A DNA stretch of 64,000 nucleotides, taken from positions 1 through 64,000 of the forward strand of contig NZ_JAJAQC010000027.1 in the NCBI RefSeq assembly GCF_027604915.1, given 5' to 3'. Source of the DNA: Streptomonospora mangrovi. GTDB lineage: Bacteria; Actinomycetota; Actinomycetes; Streptosporangiales; Streptosporangiaceae. Positions 14,185-23,531 of this stretch are shown one piece after another. The translations under genes and the position numbers were made by a program. Within the stretch, counting starts at the first letter, position 1. The number at the start of each line of letters is the position of its first letter. Under the pieces are notes generated by a model. That model was given only the letters and a program-made list of their open reading frames with translations. It did no database searches and was not told the DNA's origin.

Positions 14185-15612
14185 ATGTCCTCACGTCTTC
14201 TCCCTTTCCTTTCTTCCGGCGGGCGCGGCCCGTCCCCGGCACGCGCGTGGCTGGTGCTGTGCGCGCTGTCGATGCTTCAGTTCTTCATCGCGGTCGACGT
14301 CACCGTGGTCAACATCGCCCTGCCCTCGATCGGCGCCGAACTGGGGGTCGGCGGCCACGCGCTGACCTGGGTCGTGGTCGGGTACACCGTCACCGGCGGC
14401 GGGCTGCTCATGCTCGGCGGGCGCCTGGGCGACCTGCTGGGGCGCCGCCGCACGCTGCTGGTGGGCACGGGCCTGTTCGGCGCCGCCTCCCTGCTGGCGG
14501 GTCTGGCGCCGACCTTCGCGCTGCTGGTGGTCGCCCGGCTGCTCCAGGGCGCCGGTGAGGCCATCGCGCTTCCGGCGGCGATGGCGACCATCGTGCTGCT
14601 GTTCCCCGAGGGGCCGCGCAGGTCGCGGGCGCTGGGCGTGTGGGCGGCGGTCGCCAGTTGCGGGCTGGTGCTCGGGTTCGTCCTGTCGGGGGTCGTCACC
14701 GCCCACCTGGGGTGGCGGTGGATCTTCCTGATCTCGGTGCCGTTCGTGCTGGTGGTGCTGCTGGCGGCGCTGCTGCTGGTCGAGCACGACCGGTCGCCGG
14801 CGCCCGGCGCCGCTCCGCTGGACGTTCCCGGGGCGCTGCTGCTGACCGCCTGCCCGCTGCTGCTCGCCTACGGCGTGGTCGAGGCGGGCGAACCGGGCGG
14901 GCCGGTGTGGGTGGTGCCCGCCGCGCTGGCCGGGGCGGTGCTGGCGGGGGCCGCGTTCGCGCGGGTGGAGGCGCGTTCCCGCAACCCGCTGCTGCCGCCG
15001 GCCTTCTTCGCCGACCGCACCCGGGTGGCGGCGAACCTGACCACGGTGCTGCTCAGCGGGGCGCTGTCGACCTCGTTCCTGCTGTTCACGTTCTACCTTC
15101 AGGACCGCCTGGGCCTCGGCCCGCTGGCGGCCGGGGTGACGATGCTGCCGCTGGCGGTCGCCCTCATCGCCGCGTCCGTGCTCGTGCCCCGGCTGCTGGC
15201 CGGGTGGGGTGCGCGCGCGTGCGTGCTGGCGGGGCTCGGGTTCACCGGTGCCGCGATGGCGGTGATCGCGCTGGTCGCCCGCTGGGAGGCGGGGCCGGTG
15301 GCGCTGGTCCCGGCGATGCTGCTGGTGGCCGCCGGGATGGGGTTCGGCCTCGTGGGTCTCCAGTACCTCGCGGTCAGCGGCGTGACCGGCTACGACGCGG
15401 GGGCGGCCGCAGGAGTGCAGCGCGCGGCCGACCAGCTCGGCGGCTCCGGCGGTGTGGCGGTCTACGTGGGGATCGGGTTCGCCCCCGCCCTGCACGGCGC
15501 CGACCCGTTCCTGGTGGCCGCCCTGCTGGCCGGGGTCGGGCTGCTGGCCGGTGCGGTGGTGGCCGGGCGCATGCCCGTGCCGGACGCCGACCCGCAGGCG
15601 CGGGAGGCGTAG
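14185..15612 (+). CDS. MFS transporter, DHA2 (14-TM) drug exporter
   Basis: A 475-residue major facilitator with about 14 hydrophobic segments, as in EmrB/QacA-type proton-coupled drug exporters. Typical motifs: FFIAVDVTVVNIALPSIG in helix 1, GGRLGDLLGRRR as motif A near residue 88, and a motif-C-like Gly-rich stretch (ASCGLVLGFVLSGV) near 163. The ATG lacks a strong ribosome-binding site, and the 275-bp upstream region may contain a leader peptide and alternative hairpins. The GbsR/MarR-like regulator gene ends 275 bp upstream on the same strand and the MarR operator lies just downstream, so drug-responsive control is plausible. Substrate unknown. Confidence 0.9.
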   Translation: MSSRLLPFLSSGGRGPSPARAWLVLCALSMLQFFIAVDVTVVNIALPSIGAELGVGGHALTWVVVGYTVTGGGLLMLGGRLGDLLGRRRTLLVGTGLFGAASLLAGLAPTFALLVVARLLQGAGEAIALPAAMATIVLLFPEGPRRSRALGVWAAVASCGLVLGFVLSGVVTAHLGWRWIFLISVPFVLVVLLAALLLVEHDRSPAPGAAPLDVPGALLLTACPLLLAYGVVEAGEPGGPVWVVPAALAGAVLAGAAFARVEARSRNPLLPPAFFADRTRVAANLTTVLLSGALSTSFLLFTFYLQDRLGLGPLAAGVTMLPLAVALIAASVLVPRLLAGWGARACVLAGLGFTGAAMAVIALVARWEAGPVALVPAMLLVAAGMGFGLVGLQYLAVSGVTGYDAGAAAGVQRAADQLGGSGGVAVYVGIGFAPALHGADPFLVAALLAGVGLLAGAVVAGRMPVPDADPQAREA

Positions 15613-15690: not shown

Positions 15691-15714
15691 CTAATATATG
15701 CGGAACGCATACAA
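15691..15714. promoter_or_regulatory. Candidate MarR operator, copy 2
   Basis: The inverted repeat ATGCG-gaa-CGCAT (15698-15710), extended to TATATGCG/CGCATACA, lies 24 bp upstream of the NTF2-like start. It matches the site upstream of the MarR gene at 10169-10181 in both arms and in the ACA right flank, implying common control. Confidence 0.65.
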
Positions 15715-15734
15715 ATGCTCGAAGGAGGGCTCGC

Positions 15735-16085
15735 ATGGCCGAGGACGACTGGTCGTCGGTGCGGGAGTGGCACCGCGCGGTCAACGAACGCGACCTGGCC
15801 GCCGCCCGCCGCCCCAAGGGCGCGGCCGAGGGCGTGGAGGTGTTCACCGACTGGATCACGCGCTCGGGGATCCACCTGGAACCGGTGTCCTGGCACCCGG
15901 TGGCGCGGGACCGGATCGTGGTCGAGCAGGACGCCACCTGGCCCGACGCCCCGGACGCGGAGTCCCGCCAGGCCCCGCCCGTGCGCACGGCCACCCTGTT
16001 CGTCCTCGACGGCGACCGGGTGGCGGCGGCCCTGCGCTACGACGACGGCCTCCACGCGGCCCTGCGCGCGGCCGACGGCGGCTGA
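15735..16085 (+). CDS. NTF2/SnoaL-like protein, internally short
   Basis: A 116-residue protein with the look of a small NTF2-like (SnoaL) fold: VREWHRAVNERDLAAA at the N-terminus, then GVEVFTDWITRSGIHLEPVSWHPV, RIVVEQDATWPD and RVAAALRYDDGLHAALRAA. GAAGGAGGG precedes the ATG. Related proteins usually carry a further strand-forming segment of about 15 residues between the first helix and the GVEVF block; here it is replaced by RRPKGAAE. Either this is a short family variant or an in-frame deletion. It sits directly behind the second MarR operator. Activity unknown. Confidence 0.7.
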   Translation: MAEDDWSSVREWHRAVNERDLAAARRPKGAAEGVEVFTDWITRSGIHLEPVSWHPVARDRIVVEQDATWPDAPDAESRQAPPVRTATLFVLDGDRVAAALRYDDGLHAALRAADGG

Positions 16086-16279
16086 GCGCACGGCGCGCCC
16101 GGCACCGTCCAAGGGCGCCCACCGCGGGTCTCGCCTCCTGCCCCGCGCGGCCCGGTCCGGCCGCGCCGTGCGCGCGGATGTATGCCGGGTGGCAGATGTG
16201 GCGCGGCGGTCGCCTGCCTAGCGTTGGGGCACCCGACGACGGCGCGGCCGCGCCCCTTTTTTCCGTGAGGACCCCTTCC

Positions 16280-17737
16280 ATGAACCGCCCGCGACCAGCC
16301 CTGCTCGCCCCGCTCGCCCTGCCCGTGCTCCTCGTGCTCGGCGGCTGCTCCACCGCCGACGCCCAGCCCGTTGCCGACTCCACCGCCCCGGCGGCCCTGT
16401 CGTGGTCGGCGTGCGCGGGCGACGTCGCCGCCGCACTGGAGTGCGCCGAACTCGACGTCCCCGTCGACTACGACGACCCCGGCGGGGCCACCATCACGCT
16501 CACCCTGGCGCGGGCGGCCGCGACCGGCGAGGGCGACCCGCTGGGCACGGTCCTGTTCAACCCGGGCGGTCCGGGCGGGAGCGGGGTCGGTGCCCTGTCC
16601 CGGTCGCTGGCGAACTTCGCGGGCCTGCGCGAACGGATGGACGTCGTGACCTGGGACCCGCGCGGCGGGCAGAGCGGCGAGCACCTTCCGCTGGAGAACT
16701 GCGCGACCGGACCCGCGTTCGCCACCCCCGACAACCGGCGTGCCTACGAGCGGGCCGCGGAGGCAAACGCCGAGGCCGTCGCGGCCTGCCGCGACGCCGC
16801 CCCCGAGGTGTTCGCGAACATGGACTCCGCCACCCAGGCCCGCGACATGGACGCCATCCGCGCCGCCCTCGGTGAGGAGGAGCTTTCCTACCTCGGCAAC
16901 TCCTACGGCGGCGTCCTCGGCGCCTCCTACGCGCGGCTGTTTCCCGAGCGGGTGCGGGTGATGGCGCTGGACAGCGTGCCCGACCACGTCTCACCCATGG
17001 CGGAGTCCGAGCGGCTCCAGTACGAAGGCCTGGAGGCGGTGTTCGAGCGCTTCACCGCCTGGTGCGCCGAGGACACGTCGTGCGCGCTGCACGGGAGCGA
17101 CGCCGAGGAGGTGTGGCAGGACACCGTCCGCCGGGCCGAGCGCGATCCGCTGCCCGGCGCCGAAGCCGCCGGCGACCGCCGCTACGACGGGGACGACCTC
17201 AAGGCGCTCGCCCAGTCCATGGTGCTGCGCGAGGCGAACTGGCCGGCGTTCGCCGAGGCGGTCGCGGCGGCCGCCGACGGCGACGCCGCCAAGTTCGATC
17301 CGCGCGGGCGGGGCCTGCCGCCCCAGCCCAGCGCGCTGCTCGCGGTGCGCTGCGCCGACGGGTTCGCCTACGACGGCTACCGCGCCTACCGCCGCGCGGT
17401 GGAGCGCTCCGAAAGCTTCTCGCCCAACTTCTCCGGGGTCCGGGAGAACGCCCACCTCGCGTGCTCCTCGTGGTCGCCCGACGCCGTGAACCCGCCCGCG
17501 CCCCTGCCCGCCGACGAACTCCCGCCGATCCTAGGCGTCGCCCCGGTGTATGAGGAGGGCTCCGTGCGGGCCGTCACCGACGCGGTGCCCGGGTCGGTCA
17601 CCGTCGGCTACGACGGAATCGGCCACGGCCTCTACGTCAACCACGGCGACCCCTGCGCGATCGGCCACGTCGACCGGTACCTGATCGACGGCGTCCTGCC
17701 CGACCCCGGCACGAGCTGCCCCGCGCCGGACGCGTGA
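16280..17737 (+). CDS. Secreted lipoprotein peptidase, TAP-like alpha/beta hydrolase
   Basis: A 485-residue extracytoplasmic hydrolase of the tripeptidyl-aminopeptidase (TAP/SlpD-E) family. It starts with a lipoprotein signal ending in LGGC (lipobox near residue 23). The oxyanion motif NPGGPGGSG is near 93, the nucleophile elbow GNSYGG near 205, and the TAP-like C-terminal domain ends with GHGLYVNHGDPC, holding the likely catalytic histidine. The substrate is presumably N-terminal peptides outside the cell. The stop codon overlaps the histidine kinase GTG, so the kinase may sense conditions linked to this peptidase. Confidence 0.88.
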   Translation: MNRPRPALLAPLALPVLLVLGGCSTADAQPVADSTAPAALSWSACAGDVAAALECAELDVPVDYDDPGGATITLTLARAAATGEGDPLGTVLFNPGGPGGSGVGALSRSLANFAGLRERMDVVTWDPRGGQSGEHLPLENCATGPAFATPDNRRAYERAAEANAEAVAACRDAAPEVFANMDSATQARDMDAIRAALGEEELSYLGNSYGGVLGASYARLFPERVRVMALDSVPDHVSPMAESERLQYEGLEAVFERFTAWCAEDTSCALHGSDAEEVWQDTVRRAERDPLPGAEAAGDRRYDGDDLKALAQSMVLREANWPAFAEAVAAAADGDAAKFDPRGRGLPPQPSALLAVRCADGFAYDGYRAYRRAVERSESFSPNFSGVRENAHLACSSWSPDAVNPPAPLPADELPPILGVAPVYEEGSVRAVTDAVPGSVTVGYDGIGHGLYVNHGDPCAIGHVDRYLIDGVLPDPGTSCPAPDA

Positions 17738-19032
17738 TACTGGCCGCCGTGAGAGCACTGCGGACGCTTCGGCCCACGGCCACCCGGCGGCGGATGTCCC
17801 CCGCCGCCGGGGACGCCCTGCTCGCGGGCGGTGCGGCGGCCGCCACCCTGGCCGCCGCGGCACTCGACGGGTGGGTGCGCGGCCGGCCGCCCGACCTCAC
17901 CGACGCGGGCGCGCTGGTCGCGTGGGTGCTGCCGGTCGTGGCCGCCTGCGCCCCCCTGGCGGTGCGCCGCCGCGCGCCGCTGGCGGCGGTCGCCGCCTCG
18001 GCCGCGGTGGTGCTGGTGGCGAGCATGGTCCTCCAGCGCGACACCGGGATGTGGGCGCTGGCGCTGTGCGTCGCGTCGGCCGCCTACCACCGGCACCGGC
18101 TGCGGGTCGTGCTGGCGGCGGGCTCCGCCGTGTGGGCGGCGGCGCTCGCGCTCGCGGGCGGCGGGACCTGGGGCCTGGCCGCCCTGCCGGTGTACGCGGC
18201 GGCCGGTGCGGCGCCGGCCGCCGTCGGCTACGCGCTGCGGCTGCGCTCCGAGCGCGCCGAGCAGGCCGAGCGGTTGCAGCGTGCCCGCGAGGAGCGTGCG
18301 CGCGCGGACGAGGCCGCGCGGATCGCCCGCGACGTCCACGACATCGTCGGCCACCACCTGAGCGCGATCCGCCTCCAGGCGGTCGGCGGCCGCCGGGCGC
18401 TGGGCGGCCGCGACCCGGAGGCCGACCGCGCGCTCGGCGGGATCGCCGACCTCTCCGCGGAGGCGCTCGCCGAGATACGCGGGCTGCTCGCGACTCTGGT
18501 GCCGACCGACGCGCGGTCGCGCGCCGCGGACCGGGGGTTCGCCGACCTGGCGGCGCTCGCGGAGCGCAGCGGGGGTTCGGAGCTGGACGTCGTGCTCGAC
18601 GTCGACCCCGCTGTCCAGCGGAGTGGCGCGGACGCGGCCGTGGCGGGCTGCGTCTACCGCATCGTGCAGGAGGCGCTGACCAACGCGGCGCGGCACTCGG
18701 CGGCGGGCGCGGCCGAGGTCCGGGTCCGGGGGGTGGACGGCGCGATCACCGTCACCGTCGAGGATCCCGGCCCGCCCCGGGTCCGGCCCGGGGGCGCACC
18801 GGCCGGGCGCGCTGACGGCGGTCCGGCCGGGGGCGCCGAGGGTGCTCCGAGCGGGGGCCGCGGCCTTGCGGGGATGCGCGAGCGCGTGGCCGCGCTCGGG
18901 GGAAGCTGCACCGCCGGGCCGCGCCCGGAGGGCGGCTGGCGGGTGCGGGCCGACCTGCCCGCACGCCCGCCGAACGCCGACGCGGGCGCGGACGCCCACC
19001 GCGACGACGCGCTCGCCGGGGAGGCCCGGTGA
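17734..19032 (+). CDS. Sensor histidine kinase, NarL/DesK class
   Basis: A 432-residue membrane kinase. Five or so hydrophobic segments span residues 25-168 without a large extracellular domain, suggesting sensing within the membrane. A coiled linker leads to the HisKA_3 motif ARDVHDIVGHHLSAI with phospho-acceptor H202. The ATPase domain follows: EALTNAARHS as the N-box and GRGLAGMRERVAALGG as the G-box region, separated by a Gly/Ala-rich insert. The GTG overlaps the peptidase stop by four bases (an alternative GTG lies five codons in). Its 3' end overlaps the response regulator start by four bases, so the pair is cotranscribed. Confidence 0.92.
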   Translation: MILAAVRALRTLRPTATRRRMSPAAGDALLAGGAAAATLAAAALDGWVRGRPPDLTDAGALVAWVLPVVAACAPLAVRRRAPLAAVAASAAVVLVASMVLQRDTGMWALALCVASAAYHRHRLRVVLAAGSAVWAAALALAGGGTWGLAALPVYAAAGAAPAAVGYALRLRSERAEQAERLQRAREERARADEAARIARDVHDIVGHHLSAIRLQAVGGRRALGGRDPEADRALGGIADLSAEALAEIRGLLATLVPTDARSRAADRGFADLAALAERSGGSELDVVLDVDPAVQRSGADAAVAGCVYRIVQEALTNAARHSAAGAAEVRVRGVDGAITVTVEDPGPPRVRPGGAPAGRADGGPAGGAEGAPSGGRGLAGMRERVAALGGSCTAGPRPEGGWRVRADLPARPPNADAGADAHRDDALAGEAR

Positions 19033-19730
19033 TCCGCCTCCTGGTGGCCGACGACCAGCGGCTGGCCCGCGAGGGACTGCGCCAGCTCCTCAGCCACGAG
19101 CCCGACATCGCCTTCCTCGGCGCGGCGCGGGACGGCGCCGAGCTGGTTGAGATGGCCGGTCGGCTCCGGCCGGACGTGGTCCTCACCGACATCCGGATGC
19201 CGGGCATCGACGGGATCACCGCCATCCGGCGCCTGATGGCCGGTCCGCACTGCCCGCCGGTGATCGCGCTGACGACCTTCGACACCGACGCCTACCTGTT
19301 CGGGGCGCTCGAAGCGGGCGCCGTGGGGTTCCTGCTGAAGGACGGCGACCCCGACCTCTACCCCGCCGCTGTGCGGGCGGCCCACAAGGGGCACGGCCTC
19401 ATCGACCCCCAGGTGACCCGGCGGCTGGTGCACCGCTACGCGACGCCCGGCCCGCACGCCGCCGCGCCGAAGGCTCCGACACGGCCGACGGCCGCGCCTG
19501 ATGCGGCGCCCGCGGCCGTGCCGGAGCTGACGGCGCGGGAGACGCAGGTCCTACGCCTGCTCGCCCTCGGCCGGTCCAACACCGAGATCGCCGACGACCT
19601 GGGAATCGCCGCCGGAACGGCCAAGATCCACGTGTCCCGCATCCTCACCAAGATCGGCGTCCGCACCCGCGTCCAGGCCGCGATTTACGCCTACCGCACC
19701 GGCCTGGTGGAGGAGGACGAGCAACCGTAG
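19029..19730 (+). CDS. Response regulator, NarL/LuxR family
   Basis: A 233-residue two-component regulator. The receiver domain has DDQ at 8-10, phospho-acceptor D54 in LTDIRMPGIDG, a conserved Thr in ALTTFD and Lys in LLKDGDP. An Ala/Pro-rich linker follows, then a LuxR-type HTH (LTARETQVLRLLALGRSNTE, then AGTAKIHVSRILTKIG) near 165-215. The GTG start overlaps the kinase stop. It forms a pair with the preceding sensor; the target promoter is not evident, though the upstream peptidase gene is a natural candidate. Confidence 0.94.
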   Translation: MIRLLVADDQRLAREGLRQLLSHEPDIAFLGAARDGAELVEMAGRLRPDVVLTDIRMPGIDGITAIRRLMAGPHCPPVIALTTFDTDAYLFGALEAGAVGFLLKDGDPDLYPAAVRAAHKGHGLIDPQVTRRLVHRYATPGPHAAAPKAPTRPTAAPDAAPAAVPELTARETQVLRLLALGRSNTEIADDLGIAAGTAKIHVSRILTKIGVRTRVQAAIYAYRTGLVEEDEQP

Positions 19731-20013
19731 ACACCGAGGCGGCGGTGGTCCGTGGCGGGGTCCTGCAAGACCCCCTGAGCCCGGAGCAGCCCGACCATCT
19801 CGGCCATGGCACCCCTCCGACTTCGCTGGAGACCTTCCTCATTGAAGGTAATCACCCGCACGCTCAGAGTCAGGAGAAGCACGACACCGGTCTACTCTGG
19901 GGGCGTCCGAGAGAAGTCTCCGTGTGGTAGCAGGGACATAAGACGGGTGGTCTGCCCCGGCGTCGTCCTCCGCCATCCAGCCCGACCGCTCTTGCACAGG
20001 AAGAGGCCGCACC
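19731..20013. promoter_or_regulatory. Intergenic region before the graspetide operon
   Basis: This 283-bp gap holds a small hairpin (GGGGTC 19756-19761 with GACCCC 19768-19773) soon after the response regulator stop, without a T run. An AT-richer stretch at about 19835-19935 probably contains the promoter of the peptide operon. No gene is convincing. A short minus-strand frame with a good ribosome-binding site (starting near 19808) was seen but not accepted. Confidence 0.4.
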
Positions 20014-20280
20014 TTGGAGAAAGTGGAACCTCAGGCGCCGTGGGCTATGCGGCTGGTCACCGGACGGCTGCCGGTCGGCCCGCCGGGCTACGCGGTGGTG
20101 AGCCTGGACCCCGCAACCCAGATCGCCCGCTACACCGACGCCGCCGGACGGCCGGTCGAGCTTGCCAAGCACGGCACCTCCCGGACGAAGGGCACCGCCT
20201 CGATGTCGGGGGGCGGCGACGGCACCGGCCCCAACCCCCAGACCCAGGACGACAACACCACCGACTACGAGTCCGACTGA
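20014..20280 (+). CDS. tgmA: Graspetide precursor peptide (TgmA-like)
   Basis: An 88-residue ribosomal peptide precursor. The leader shows the APWAMRL motif (residues 8-14) and a YAVVSLDPATQIARYTD segment typical of ATP-grasp-modified peptides. The C-terminal core from about residue 53 is rich in Thr/Ser donors and Asp/Glu acceptors (TKGTASMSGGGDGTG, then QTQDDNTTDYESD), as needed for omega-ester cross-links. A single Asp-Gly pair (D69-G70) is a natural site for aspartimide formation. The start is TTG at 20014 with AGGAAGAGG seven bases upstream. It is followed after two bases by the ATP-grasp gene. Family call from precursor shape plus context; cross-link pattern not predictable. Confidence 0.88.
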   Translation: MEKVEPQAPWAMRLVTGRLPVGPPGYAVVSLDPATQIARYTDAAGRPVELAKHGTSRTKGTASMSGGGDGTGPNPQTQDDNTTDYESD

Positions 20281-20282
20281 GC

Positions 20283-21260
20283 ATGGGCTCCACCGTCCTG
20301 GTCCTCACCGCTCTGGAAGACGTCACCGCCGACTGGGTCATCGCCGAACTGAACGACCGGGGCGTGCCTGTGGCGCGCGTGGATCCCGCCGACATCGGGG
20401 CCGCGCTGTCCTTCGACTTCCGCCTCGGCCTTGACACAGGGGAGTGGCAGGGGCGGCTGCGCACGGGAAGCCGGGAGGTGAACCTGGAGGACGTGGCGGC
20501 GGTGTACTACCGCCGCCCCACCCCTTACGCCGCCCGATACGAGCACCTGCCAGCCCAGCAGCAGCGTTTTGCCGCCGCCGAGGCTCGCCACGGTCTGAGC
20601 GGCGTCCTCAACCACCTGTCGGCCGCCCGCTACGTCAACCACCCTTCTGCGGTGGCCCGCGCCGACTTCAAACCGGCCCAACTCCAGCGCTTCGCCGACC
20701 TCGGACTGACCATCCCGCCGACGCTGATCACCAACGACGCCGAGGCCGCACGTGCCTTCGCCGCCGACCACGAGCACGTCGTCTACAAGACATTTCGCGG
20801 CCTGCCCCCCGGCGAGGACGGGCACGCCGGGGTGATCTGGGCGCAGCGCGTCGACCCCGCCGCCTTTGACGACTCCCTCGCCCTCACCGCGCACCTGTTC
20901 CAGGCGCAGATCCCCAAGACCTGCGACGTGCGGGTCACCGTCGTCGGCCCCCAGGTGTTCGCCCAGCAGATCACCACGCCACACGGCGCGCTCGACTGGC
21001 GCAGCGGCGACTGGGCGGAACTGGTCCACACCCCCGTCACCGTCCCCGCCGCCGTCGAGGCCGCCCTGCACGCCTACCTGGAGTCCTGGGGGCTCGTCTT
21101 CGGCTGCTTCGACTTCGCCCTGACCGGCGCGGCCCTCGATCCGCAGTGCTGGACCGCCATCGAGTGCAACCCCAACGGGCAGTGGGGCTGGCTGCCCGAC
21201 GCGCCGGACATCGCGCGCGCCTTCGCCGACATTCTGAGTAGAGGAGACGGTCGGCCATGA
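20283..21260 (+). CDS. tgmB: ATP-grasp ribosomal peptide maturase (TgmB-like)
   Basis: A 325-residue ATP-grasp ligase of the MvdC/MvdD-TgmB group, expected to join Asp/Glu side chains of the precursor to Ser/Thr hydroxyls as esters at the cost of ATP. The N-terminal preATP-grasp part starts VLVLTALEDVTADWVIAEL. VAAVYYRRPTPYAAR near residue 80 is characteristic of the maturases. ATP-grasp residues include VVYKTFRGLPPGED near 165, and the metal-binding end CWTAIECNPNGQWGWLPDAP near 290 with E and N ligands. The ATG is two bases after the precursor stop. The 3' end overlaps the methyltransferase start by four bases. Confidence 0.93.
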   Translation: MGSTVLVLTALEDVTADWVIAELNDRGVPVARVDPADIGAALSFDFRLGLDTGEWQGRLRTGSREVNLEDVAAVYYRRPTPYAARYEHLPAQQQRFAAAEARHGLSGVLNHLSAARYVNHPSAVARADFKPAQLQRFADLGLTIPPTLITNDAEAARAFAADHEHVVYKTFRGLPPGEDGHAGVIWAQRVDPAAFDDSLALTAHLFQAQIPKTCDVRVTVVGPQVFAQQITTPHGALDWRSGDWAELVHTPVTVPAAVEAALHAYLESWGLVFGCFDFALTGAALDPQCWTAIECNPNGQWGWLPDAPDIARAFADILSRGDGRP

Positions 21261-22456
21261 CGCTGCCCGCTGACCTGGACGCCGACGCCGCGCGGCTGCG
21301 GCGCGGCTTGGTCCGCGCCCTGGCCGAGGAGGGGGTCCTGGGCGATCCCGCCTGGCGGCAGGCGGTCGCGGCGGTGCCCCGACACCGGTTCGTGCCCGGC
21401 TTCTACCTGCCGGGCGAGGAGCCTGACCCAGACGGGCTGACGGTGTGGGAGCCGGTCACCGCCGACCTCGACCACGCCCGGTGGCTGGCCGCCGCCTACT
21501 CCGACACCACGCTCATCACCCAGTTCGACGGCGACGAACCCGACTGGGCGCGCCCCGCCGTGCGCCACGGCGGCGCGCCGACCTCCTCCTCCACGCTGCC
21601 GTCGCTGGTGGTGGGCATGTGGGCCGACGCGGAGGTCGCCGAGGGCCACAACGTGCTGGAGATCGGCACCGGCACCGGCTACTCCACCGCGCTGGCCTGC
21701 GAACGGCTCGGCTCAGCCGGGGTCACCTCGATCGAGGTCGACGGGCACCGATTGAGGCAGGCCGCTTCCTCGCTGCACGCCTGCGGCTACATCCCCGCAC
21801 TGGCGGTGGCCGACGGTCTCTATGGGTACCGGCCCCGGGCGCCGTTCGACCGGATCGTGGCCGCCTGCTCGTTCCGGGCCGTGCCCCCGGCCCTGCTCGC
21901 CCAAGCCCGGCCGGGCGGCAAGATCCTGCTCACCCTGTCGGGGTGGCTCTACGGCTACGCGCGCGTCCTGCTGACCGTCGACGCCGACGGCACCGCCCAC
22001 GGGCGCCTGCTGCCGGGGACGGTGTCGTTCATGGCGGTGCGCACCCACGCCCCGCCCTCGTTCGGCAACCCCGCCCACTGGGCTGCCTTGGCGTCCGGCG
22101 CCGACCGCCCGACCCGGCACGCTCCGGACCGCCTCACCCACCCGACGGTTGAGGCGTTCCACCTGCGGTTCCTCGCCCAGTGCGCGGTCCCCGACGCGCA
22201 GATGGCGACCGTGGACGGGCACGTGCACCTGGTGGATGTGGTCACGGGGTCGGTGGCCGTGCTGTCGGCCCAGGGCGGGGACTGGAGGGTCCGGCAGGGC
22301 GGCCCGGTGGCGCTGTGGGATCGCGTCGAGGCCGTGGTGGACGCCTACGACGCCGCCGGTGCCCCCGAGCCCTCGGCCTTCACGCTGCACGTGGACGCTG
22401 CCGGGCAGTACCTGCGCCACCCCGGCATGCCGAGCCTGCGGCTACCCCAGTTGTGA
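21257..22456 (+). CDS. tgmC: PIMT-like methyltransferase of ATP-grasp peptide system
   Basis: A 399-residue protein whose N-terminal half is a protein-isoaspartate-type SAM methyltransferase: APTSSSTLPSLVVGMWADA near residue 97, the SAM-binding motif VLEIGTGTGYSTALACERLG near 133, and IVAACSFRAVPPALLAQARPGG near 195. The extended C-terminal half (residues 250-399) is typical of methyltransferases in ATP-grasp peptide clusters. In characterised relatives (fuscimiditide) the enzyme methylates an Asp of the cross-linked peptide, which then closes to an aspartimide; by analogy it may act on D69 of the precursor. The ATG overlaps the ATP-grasp stop. A strong terminator follows. Confidence 0.9.
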   Translation: MTLPADLDADAARLRRGLVRALAEEGVLGDPAWRQAVAAVPRHRFVPGFYLPGEEPDPDGLTVWEPVTADLDHARWLAAAYSDTTLITQFDGDEPDWARPAVRHGGAPTSSSTLPSLVVGMWADAEVAEGHNVLEIGTGTGYSTALACERLGSAGVTSIEVDGHRLRQAASSLHACGYIPALAVADGLYGYRPRAPFDRIVAACSFRAVPPALLAQARPGGKILLTLSGWLYGYARVLLTVDADGTAHGRLLPGTVSFMAVRTHAPPSFGNPAHWAALASGADRPTRHAPDRLTHPTVEAFHLRFLAQCAVPDAQMATVDGHVHLVDVVTGSVAVLSAQGGDWRVRQGGPVALWDRVEAVVDAYDAAGAPEPSAFTLHVDAAGQYLRHPGMPSLRLPQL

Positions 22457-22527: not shown

Positions 22528-22713
22528 CTAGAGGGTGTCGTTGCGGAGGGCGGAGAGGAAGGCGTCCCACTCGGTCGCCGGGAAGGTGAGGTGGCCCAGG
22601 TCGCGGTGCTGGGTGTCGCGCATGAGGGTGTGCGCGCCTTCGGCGACCTCGACGCAGTTGGGGTTCTGTGCGCCGCTGTAGCTGCTCTTGTGCCAAATGT
22701 TAGTTTTGCTCAT
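22528..22713 (-). CDS. DUF397 protein
   Basis: A 61-residue DUF397 protein with the typical WHKSSYSGAQNPNCVEVAEG, RDTQHRD and TFPATEWDAFLSALRN blocks. These small proteins are encoded next to XRE/DUF5753 regulators in actinomycetes, often as a regulator-effector or anti-sigma-like pair (BldB/WhiJ-type context); the biochemical role is unsettled. Its ATG overlaps the regulator stop by four bases. Confidence 0.93.
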   Translation of the reverse strand: MSKTNIWHKSSYSGAQNPNCVEVAEGAHTLMRDTQHRDLGHLTFPATEWDAFLSALRNDTL

Positions 22714-23531
22714 GGAATATCGCTTCTCATTCTCTTGATGAGGATCAACGACTGATCCGGGGACAAGGCTTCCACTTGGAGATCCCCGAACTGATTCGAG
22801 ACGTCCGCAACTTCCGTTGCTTTCTCTATGAGCACCATTCCTTTGATGTGTTCGGCGTGAACGATCTGGCGTCCGTCTGCCATGGTCGCGATTCGGAACG
22901 AACCACAGACGCCAACTCGGGGTCGCCGAATGTCGTGGGGAACCACGCTGAGCACGATGCCATGCCGGTTGACCACTGTAACCAGATGGTCCAGTTGTTC
23001 GGCCATGACCTCAGGCATCACCATGGTGCGAGTCAGGGCGTACTCATCCAGCACGAACCTGAGTTCCGTGCGGGGGTTGAGCTGCTCCAGCCGAGCCATG
23101 CGTGAGGCTATCAGTTGGTCGACCTGCTCCTCGGCCAGCGCCCGTCGCCAAAGAATGGTACGAGCATACTTGGGGCTCTGGAGCAGACCAGGGACGATGA
23201 GCGGCTGGTACTCCCTGATCTCGATGGCGGCCCTCTCCATGAGTATGAAGTCGTTCCACTCGTCGGGGACATCGTGTGTGCCGCTCAGTTCGCGCCAGCG
23301 CTGAAGCAGAACTCCACCTGTAGCAAGCCCTTCATCGAGCGCGCCCGCTTGGTCCCGATTTGGTGTTCTCGTGCCGTTCTCCATTTTTCCAATGAGTTGT
23401 CGGCTCTGATGAATCATGCGAGCGGCATCGGTCTGGTTCTTTCCGGCCATTTTGCGAAGGCGGCGAAGTTCGGCGCCCCACCGAGCCCACTGCTCGTTCA
23501 CTTGTTCTGCCATGTTATGAGGGTGCACCAT
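22710..23531 (-). CDS. XRE family regulator with DUF5753 domain (WhiJ-like)
   Basis: A 273-residue regulator. An XRE helix-turn-helix lies near residues 15-70 (WGAELRRLRKMAGKNQTDAA, then RQLIGKMENGTRTP). A DUF5753 effector domain follows (IREYQPLIVPGLLQSPKYA, then FVLDEYALTR, RHGIVLSVVPHD and FRIATMADGRQIVHAEH). Two starts are possible, ATG at 23531 or ATG at 23513; neither has a strong ribosome-binding site and the shorter form begins MAEQVNEQWARW. GC content is visibly lower than in flanking genes. It is translationally coupled to DUF397 and divergent from three small genes that it may control. Confidence 0.9.
   Translation of the reverse strand: MVHPHNMAEQVNEQWARWGAELRRLRKMAGKNQTDAARMIHQSRQLIGKMENGTRTPNRDQAGALDEGLATGGVLLQRWRELSGTHDVPDEWNDFILMERAAIEIREYQPLIVPGLLQSPKYARTILWRRALAEEQVDQLIASRMARLEQLNPRTELRFVLDEYALTRTMVMPEVMAEQLDHLVTVVNRHGIVLSVVPHDIRRPRVGVCGSFRIATMADGRQIVHAEHIKGMVLIEKATEVADVSNQFGDLQVEALSPDQSLILIKRMRSDIP

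Follow-up and report, generated by a model that had tools for sequence, protein, structure and literature searches.

A very probable graspimiditide operon in Streptomonospora mangrovi with a discrete core type and a tentative ring model

Described graspimiditides and the Streptomonospora operon

Graspimiditides make up group 13 of the 24 graspetide groups, and three surveys counted 1326, 962 and 1432 group-13 clusters (PMC13001092). The class is common among actinomycetes and the subject of repeated surveys (PMC13001092, PMC10787088, PMC8939145); PMC8939145 deals with the same actinobacterial branch as the locus described here. According to the available text of PMC13001092, the four characterised products are all Thr-Asp stem-loops in which the modified loop Asp is followed by Gly. 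Fuscimiditide, the product of ThfABM from Thermobifida fusca, arises from a precursor, one ATP-grasp ligase and one PIMT homologue and adopts a stem-loop whose loop contains the modified Asp (PMC12291112, PMC13001092). SsfA(BM) from Streptomyces sp. F-3 has the same gene set, again with a modified Asp followed by Gly (PMC10787088). Amycolimiditide and albusimiditide are stem-loop graspimiditides with one aspartimide (PMC13001092), and amycolimiditide carries four esters (PMC13003496). As far as the available text of PMC12291112 goes, the native protease has not been determined for any graspimiditide.

How does the Streptomonospora mangrovi locus compare with these systems? The window, that is the whole stretch of 64,000 nucleotides that was analysed, holds the same gene set:

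20014..20280, forward strand: precursor gene, 88 aa, TTG start; above the cut-offs of TIGR04186 and PF14408
20283..21260, forward strand: ATP-grasp graspetide ligase, 325 aa; TIGR04187, with an MvdD pre-ATP-grasp domain
21257..22456, forward strand: PIMT-type O-methyltransferase with a C-terminal extension, 399 aa; TIGR04188, with a PCMT domain

Re-reading the sequence bore out the initial annotation in its coordinates, TTG start, precursor length and gene spacing, with a gap of 2 bp (20281-20282) between precursor and ligase and a 4-bp overlap, ATGA (21257-21260), between ligase and methyltransferase; the precursor does contain exactly one Asp-Gly, D69-G70. The TTG start lines up with the ATG starts of relatives, and all three reading frames are open and contain the expected motifs. 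Read upstream, the ligase frame also runs without a stop across the entire precursor gene (19806-21260, forward strand), giving a spurious ORF of 484 aa and a possible trap for gene callers.

NCBIfam has one system-specific model for each part (TIGR04186, TIGR04187 and TIGR04188), and a Pfam scan was run beside it. The precursor scored 63.7 bits against TIGR04186 and 72.8 bits against PF14408 (Actino_peptide), the cut-off being 25 in both cases; the ligase reached 395.7 bits against TIGR04187 (cut-off 350) and the methyltransferase 444.6 bits against TIGR04188 (cut-off 380), with 72.2 bits for the PCMT domain. Among 14 control genomes TIGR04186 had no match; TIGR04188 matched in all 14 and TIGR04187 in seven, neither of them ever above its cut-off. 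The gene set also recurs with the relatives of the ligase: in the best 80 of 397 confirmed ligase loci, tblastn found the ligase in 80, the methyltransferase in 78 and the precursor in 70, and several of the loci that lack a precursor or methyltransferase end at contig ends. Because of the scores above cut-off, the control genomes and this recurrence, the family matches are not due to chance. The locus thus combines a precursor of the Actino_peptide / GRASP_targ kind, an ATP-grasp maturase of the matching subfamily, a RiPP-associated PIMT homologue that lies in the operon and is extended at its C-terminus (its PIMT-like part spanning residues ~105-236) and a single loop Asp (D69-G70) between hydroxyls at 55-65 and acids at 79-88, all features of a group-13 graspetide.

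In the structural database, a PDB sequence search with the ligase matched six distinct sequences, including 9bou, 7mgv (CdnC), 5ig8 and 7m4s (AMdnB), and one with the methyltransferase matched ten PIMTs over about residues 105-236. The ligase motif IECNPNGQW is exact in 57 of 80 aligned rows, with a near form in most of the others. That this is a graspetide locus with a PIMT partner had been claimed at the outset and is now backed by three curated families; on the sequence evidence we hold, with high confidence, that a three-gene group-13 graspetide (graspimiditide) operon is the overall best explanation. The operon is real, apparently intact and ordinary for graspimiditides.

By analogy with the characterised relatives, which perform ester and aspartimide chemistry (PMC13001092, PMC12291112, PMC10787088), the leader would guide the ATP-grasp ligase in phosphorylating Asp side chains of the C-terminal arm and coupling them to Thr/Ser hydroxyls of the N-terminal arm of the core, and the resulting side-chain esters would hold a stem-loop together. 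Next, the PIMT homologue would methylate one loop Asp, D69, and displacement of methanol by the backbone nitrogen of G70 would give an aspartimide able to hydrolyse to isoAsp and Asp. The leader would be cut off by an enzyme encoded elsewhere. Gene content, family membership and conservation at this locus are the basis of the scheme, while the chemistry and the order of its steps would follow the characterised members.

Neighbourhood and distribution

Do the flanking genes belong to the operon? Two genes downstream are of uncertain membership:

22528..22713, reverse strand: DUF397 protein; PF04149, 72.3 bits; relative in 22 of 80 loci
22710..23531, reverse strand: HTH-DUF5753 regulator; PF19054, 159.4 bits; relative in 37 of 80 loci

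Both counts are raw, with the background rate still included, and the HTH-DUF5753 relatives are mostly 24-34% identical. The two genes form a possible regulator pair; DUF397/DUF5753 pairs are reported near group 11 and group 13 graspetides in the available text of PMC13097080. Upstream, a histidine kinase (17734-19032) recurs at none of the 80 homologous loci and a response regulator (19029-19730) at two, and both were discarded as cluster members. The same holds for the nearest upstream candidates for a transporter and a protease, an MFS-like ORF at 14185-15612 (1 of 80) and a secreted alpha/beta-hydrolase-like ORF inside 15698-17737 (0 of 80), both named by eye. Clustering of flanking ORFs with a minimum length of 110 aa over the best 80 of the 397 loci gave 22 families present in at least eight loci. 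Ten of these fall mostly on the three core genes, and in an eleventh the precursor frame simply runs on. Among the rest are DUF6087, DUF6879, a HAD hydrolase, the HTH-DUF5753 family (37 loci), a few families with no Pfam match and a long protein that reads like a regulator (15 loci), with apparent shadow ORFs on its opposite strand. Ten representatives of the recurring families were scanned and included neither a protease nor a transporter. The observation that neither is adjacent to the operon holds. Such an absence is ordinary, since no native protease has been determined in the class (PMC12291112, available text) and none recurs in the flanks. A promoter and terminator scan, using one consensus only for the sigma-70-like promoter, found neither element at the operon.

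The gene family is common in Streptomyces: TIGR04186 is above cut-off in at least 211 of 295 sampled genomes, and in two of six genomes of the window's own genus, S. mangrovi counted. A search with the window precursor, at E values up to 1e-6, found this core type in at least 22 of the 295 Streptomyces genomes, one of which was the centre of the sample and a known carrier beforehand. In these genomes 24 matches cover most of the precursor at 63% identity or more; the remaining matches reach at most 49%, save one of 38 residues at 68%. The Streptomyces genome counts are lower bounds because 18-19 first-look candidates were scored per genome. The window's core is therefore a discrete minority type, and most of the nearest Streptomyces loci have nearly the same core. 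The core type also occurs in uncharacterised loci of Streptomyces, Actinoallomurus and further actinomycetes. Those of S. hoynatensis (L002), Streptomyces sp. AC512_CC834 (L006) and Actinoallomurus purpureus (L009), for instance, share with the window the gene trio and its order, and have a core near-identical to the window's (in L006, 5 of 37 residues differ from K52 on, counted by eye) and a ligase 71-76% identical, whereas the genes flanking these and similar loci are unlike those of the window.

An ATP-grasp tree (80 rows, 78 of them different, chosen by similarity to the window; midpoint root) places the window in a 54-row clade (support 100/97) of mostly Streptomycetaceae, with two Actinoallomurus, one Actinomadura and genome G035; Nonomuraea, Streptosporangium, Sphaerisporangium and Planomonospora form a separate 16-row clade (97/87). 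Horizontal exchange among actinomycetes would be a reasonable reading of this tree.

The genome of S. mangrovi has two further graspimiditide-like clusters, on contigs C10 (20314-22654) and C72 (5175-7419), recorded as L082, L083, L093 and L095. Both have a ligase and a methyltransferase above cut-off; the C10 core ends in DEDHTQDSDQD and is of a different type, and the C72 precursor barely passes (25.8 bits). Eight more proteins (on C26, C29, C69, C121 with two, C28, C6 and C109; L096-L100) score 275-332 bits against TIGR04188, under its cut-off. Small Gly/Pro/Asp/Lys-rich ORFs lie directly ahead of the methyltransferases in L096 (1295-1471) and L100 (1310-1477), and these could be imiditide precursors.

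Core sequence and candidate ring pairings

We infer a boundary that leaves residues ~1-52 as leader and ~53-88 as core. The features of the core are:

20170..20277, forward strand: conserved core, residues 53-88, HGTSRTKGTASMSGGGDGTGPNPQTQDDNTTDYESD, from column and co-occurrence counts
within the core, forward strand: predicted donors T55, T61, S63 and S65 and predicted acceptors D79, D80, D84 and D88, of putative pairing
20218..20223, forward strand: D69-G70, predicted methylation and aspartimide site, from conservation and a comparison with the locus L057

Two sets of precursors were used. An alignment of 76 rows (the window and 75 others) contains many near-copies and six rows from relatives fetched apart; it leaves out L045 (a broken match), L057, L081 (a copy of the window) and L088 (a copy of L050). 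Of 138 precursors, 118 of them distinct, 83 make up the co-occurrence set; they were picked by a pattern in which the loop Asp and the DD pair are obligatory, as are hydroxyls at positions 63 and 65. Of 41 further matches to the collection, 33 were added, four were already included and four partial ones were left out. In the alignment the acids are D79 in 71 rows, D80 in 76, D84 in 73 and D88 in 71, with position 86 acidic in 60, and hydroxyls stand at position 55 in 69 rows, at 58 in 62, at 61 in 73, at 63 in 76 and at 65 in 74.

How might these residues be paired? Four conserved donors (55, 61, 63, 65) face four acceptors (88, 84, 80, 79), which suggests a nested hairpin with esters S65-D79, S63-D80, T61-D84 and T55-D88. 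We give this pairing, read from conservation, a little less than an even chance. T55 and D88 are lost together: among the 83 precursors, 70 have both, ten have neither, three have T55 alone (one of these, L166, mis-registered) and none has D88 alone, counts that shared ancestry inflates, as the co-losses sit in related genera. The predicted loop has 13 residues in 67 of the 83. In the shortest cores (L050, L053), T-x-T-x-S stands ahead of the loop and D, D and D behind it, and D84 is kept with both 55 and 58 absent. L051, L054 and L173 have a hydroxyl at 58 with no D88, and this hydroxyl has no partner in the nested pairing. The pairing would require Ser donors, unlike the Thr of the four known products, and this counts against it. 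Moreover, position 65 is Ser in all 83 selected precursors and Thr in none, so S65 could have a role in a turn instead of acting as a donor.

The same operon might instead make rings from Thr only (T61-D80, T58-D84 and T55-D88), with a long loop and with D79, S63 and S65 unlinked, a reading we find rather unlikely. It would account for the regular spacing, Thr at every third position and D80, D84 and D88 at every fourth, and for the use of Thr in the four known products (PMC13001092). The conservation pattern argues the other way: seven of the 83 precursors keep D84 and D88 with no hydroxyl at 58, the short cores just described retain D84 with neither 55 nor 58, and Ser/Thr is found at 63 in 76 of 76 aligned rows and at 65 in 74. 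A fifth ester, with T58 as donor to E86 or to the C-terminal carboxylate, is more doubtful still. It was postulated for SsfA, whose last 12 residues hold only four Asp even though the peptide has five esters (PMC10787088), and here 62 of 76 rows have Ser/Thr at position 58 and 60 an acid at position 86; both positions are nevertheless less conserved than the other ring candidates.

With the nested pairing as the preferred reading, the core differs from the described products in several ways. Fuscimiditide has two Thr-Asp esters, a 22-aa core and a 10-aa loop (PMC12291112), against four conserved acceptors and a predicted 13-aa loop here, and its spacing (T3-D22, T7-D18; PMC12291112) is not reproduced by the conserved acids at 79, 80, 84 and 88. 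SsfA is closer in that its last 12 residues also hold four Asp, but 17 residues separate its modified Asp from the C-terminus, compared with 20 here, and it has five esters and no Glu in its last 12 residues where the window has E86 (PMC10787088). Amycolimiditide is 29 aa long (PMC13003496) with a native loop of 10 aa (PMC12291112), whereas T55-D88 spans 34 aa around the predicted 13-aa loop. The core and the precursor were each searched against PDB sequences, and either search yielded a single weak match of no relevance. The ring sizes reported for albusimiditide do not seem to fit the window core and did not enter the comparison. Covering fuscimiditide, amycolimiditide (by core length and loop size) and SsfA, as described in the available text of their sources, this comparison found no characterised product with this core. 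The initial annotation had suggested that the product may be new, and this stands in part: the core differs from those of fuscimiditide, amycolimiditide and SsfA, but many Streptomyces loci in a repeatedly surveyed class have closely similar cores. The core sequence itself is not novel; the exact ring pattern of the core type has apparently yet to be worked out. The product of the type may be a tetracyclic hairpin in which two neighbouring Asp residues each accept an ester from a Ser (S65-D79, S63-D80) and which has a 13-residue aspartimide loop, the PIMT motif having shifted from W to Y/F along with the new fold; we regard this full picture as possible rather than probable. In the window's own genus, the precursor L087 (genome G004) has T for D79 and a core ending in RTDTTTDYVQD, which suggests one acceptor fewer.

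Methyltransferase and predicted target aspartate

The methyltransferase carries an EIGTGTG motif, and YDAAGAP where WXXXGXP is expected. WXXXGXP is reported as conserved in graspimiditide PIMTs (PMC13001092, available text) and is matched here only in part, with Y in place of W and with G and P kept, a point against the scheme given above. Across 80 aligned methyltransferase rows, in which two genes of the window's genome are each entered twice, the W position is Y in 40, W in 23, F in 11, H in three, V in one and a gap in two. None of the 23 W rows falls in the 54-row ligase clade of the window (L076 is not part of the tree), and within this clade W is replaced by Y, F or H, and once by V. 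The motif is not class-defining for graspimiditides.

We consider it very improbable that the operon is silent or decaying, or that the methyltransferase is a repair-type PIMT merely adjoining a graspetide operon: the promoter scan came back empty and the window precursor matched only one of five other genomes of the genus, at 47% identity, but the scan relied on a single consensus, the three frames are open with their motifs in place, and the methyltransferase passes TIGR04188, scores only 64-82 bits against repair-type PIMT models (cut-offs 159-282) and has a relative beside the ligase in 78 of the best 80 of 397 loci.

For a graspimiditide operon with a dedicated PIMT homologue, which residue is the target? 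D69 is present in 76 of 76 aligned precursors and G70 in 75; L057, which has no such site, stands outside the alignment. L057 (= L174), from Nonomuraea cavernae, has an open, intact-looking ligase of 321 aa, followed by ~5 kb in which, as in the rest of its 10-kb locus, tblastn found no methyltransferase even at E 1, and its precursor ends in PGGSTKNAANAEDDSSSGQR, with no Asp-Gly. Since a second cluster of the same species (L062) has a methyltransferase, L057 is a single suggestive case rather than a clean gene loss. A case to the contrary is L046 (Streptomyces sp. CB03234), of the window's core type, where no methyltransferase follows the ligase, yet D69 is kept; this locus seems degraded, as its ligase match ends at residue 294. 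The proposal in the initial annotation that D69 is the aspartimide site gains from both the conserved D69-G70 and the relative that lacks PIMT gene and loop Asp-Gly together, and D69 is very likely to be the target of the PIMT homologue and the site of the aspartimide.

According to the available text of PMC13001092, what the aspartimide does is an open question. Loci of the L057 type, set against their PIMT-bearing relatives, offer a natural comparison for asking what the modification is for, and the operon of S. mangrovi adds to the graspimiditides a well-delimited core type with a concrete ring prediction.
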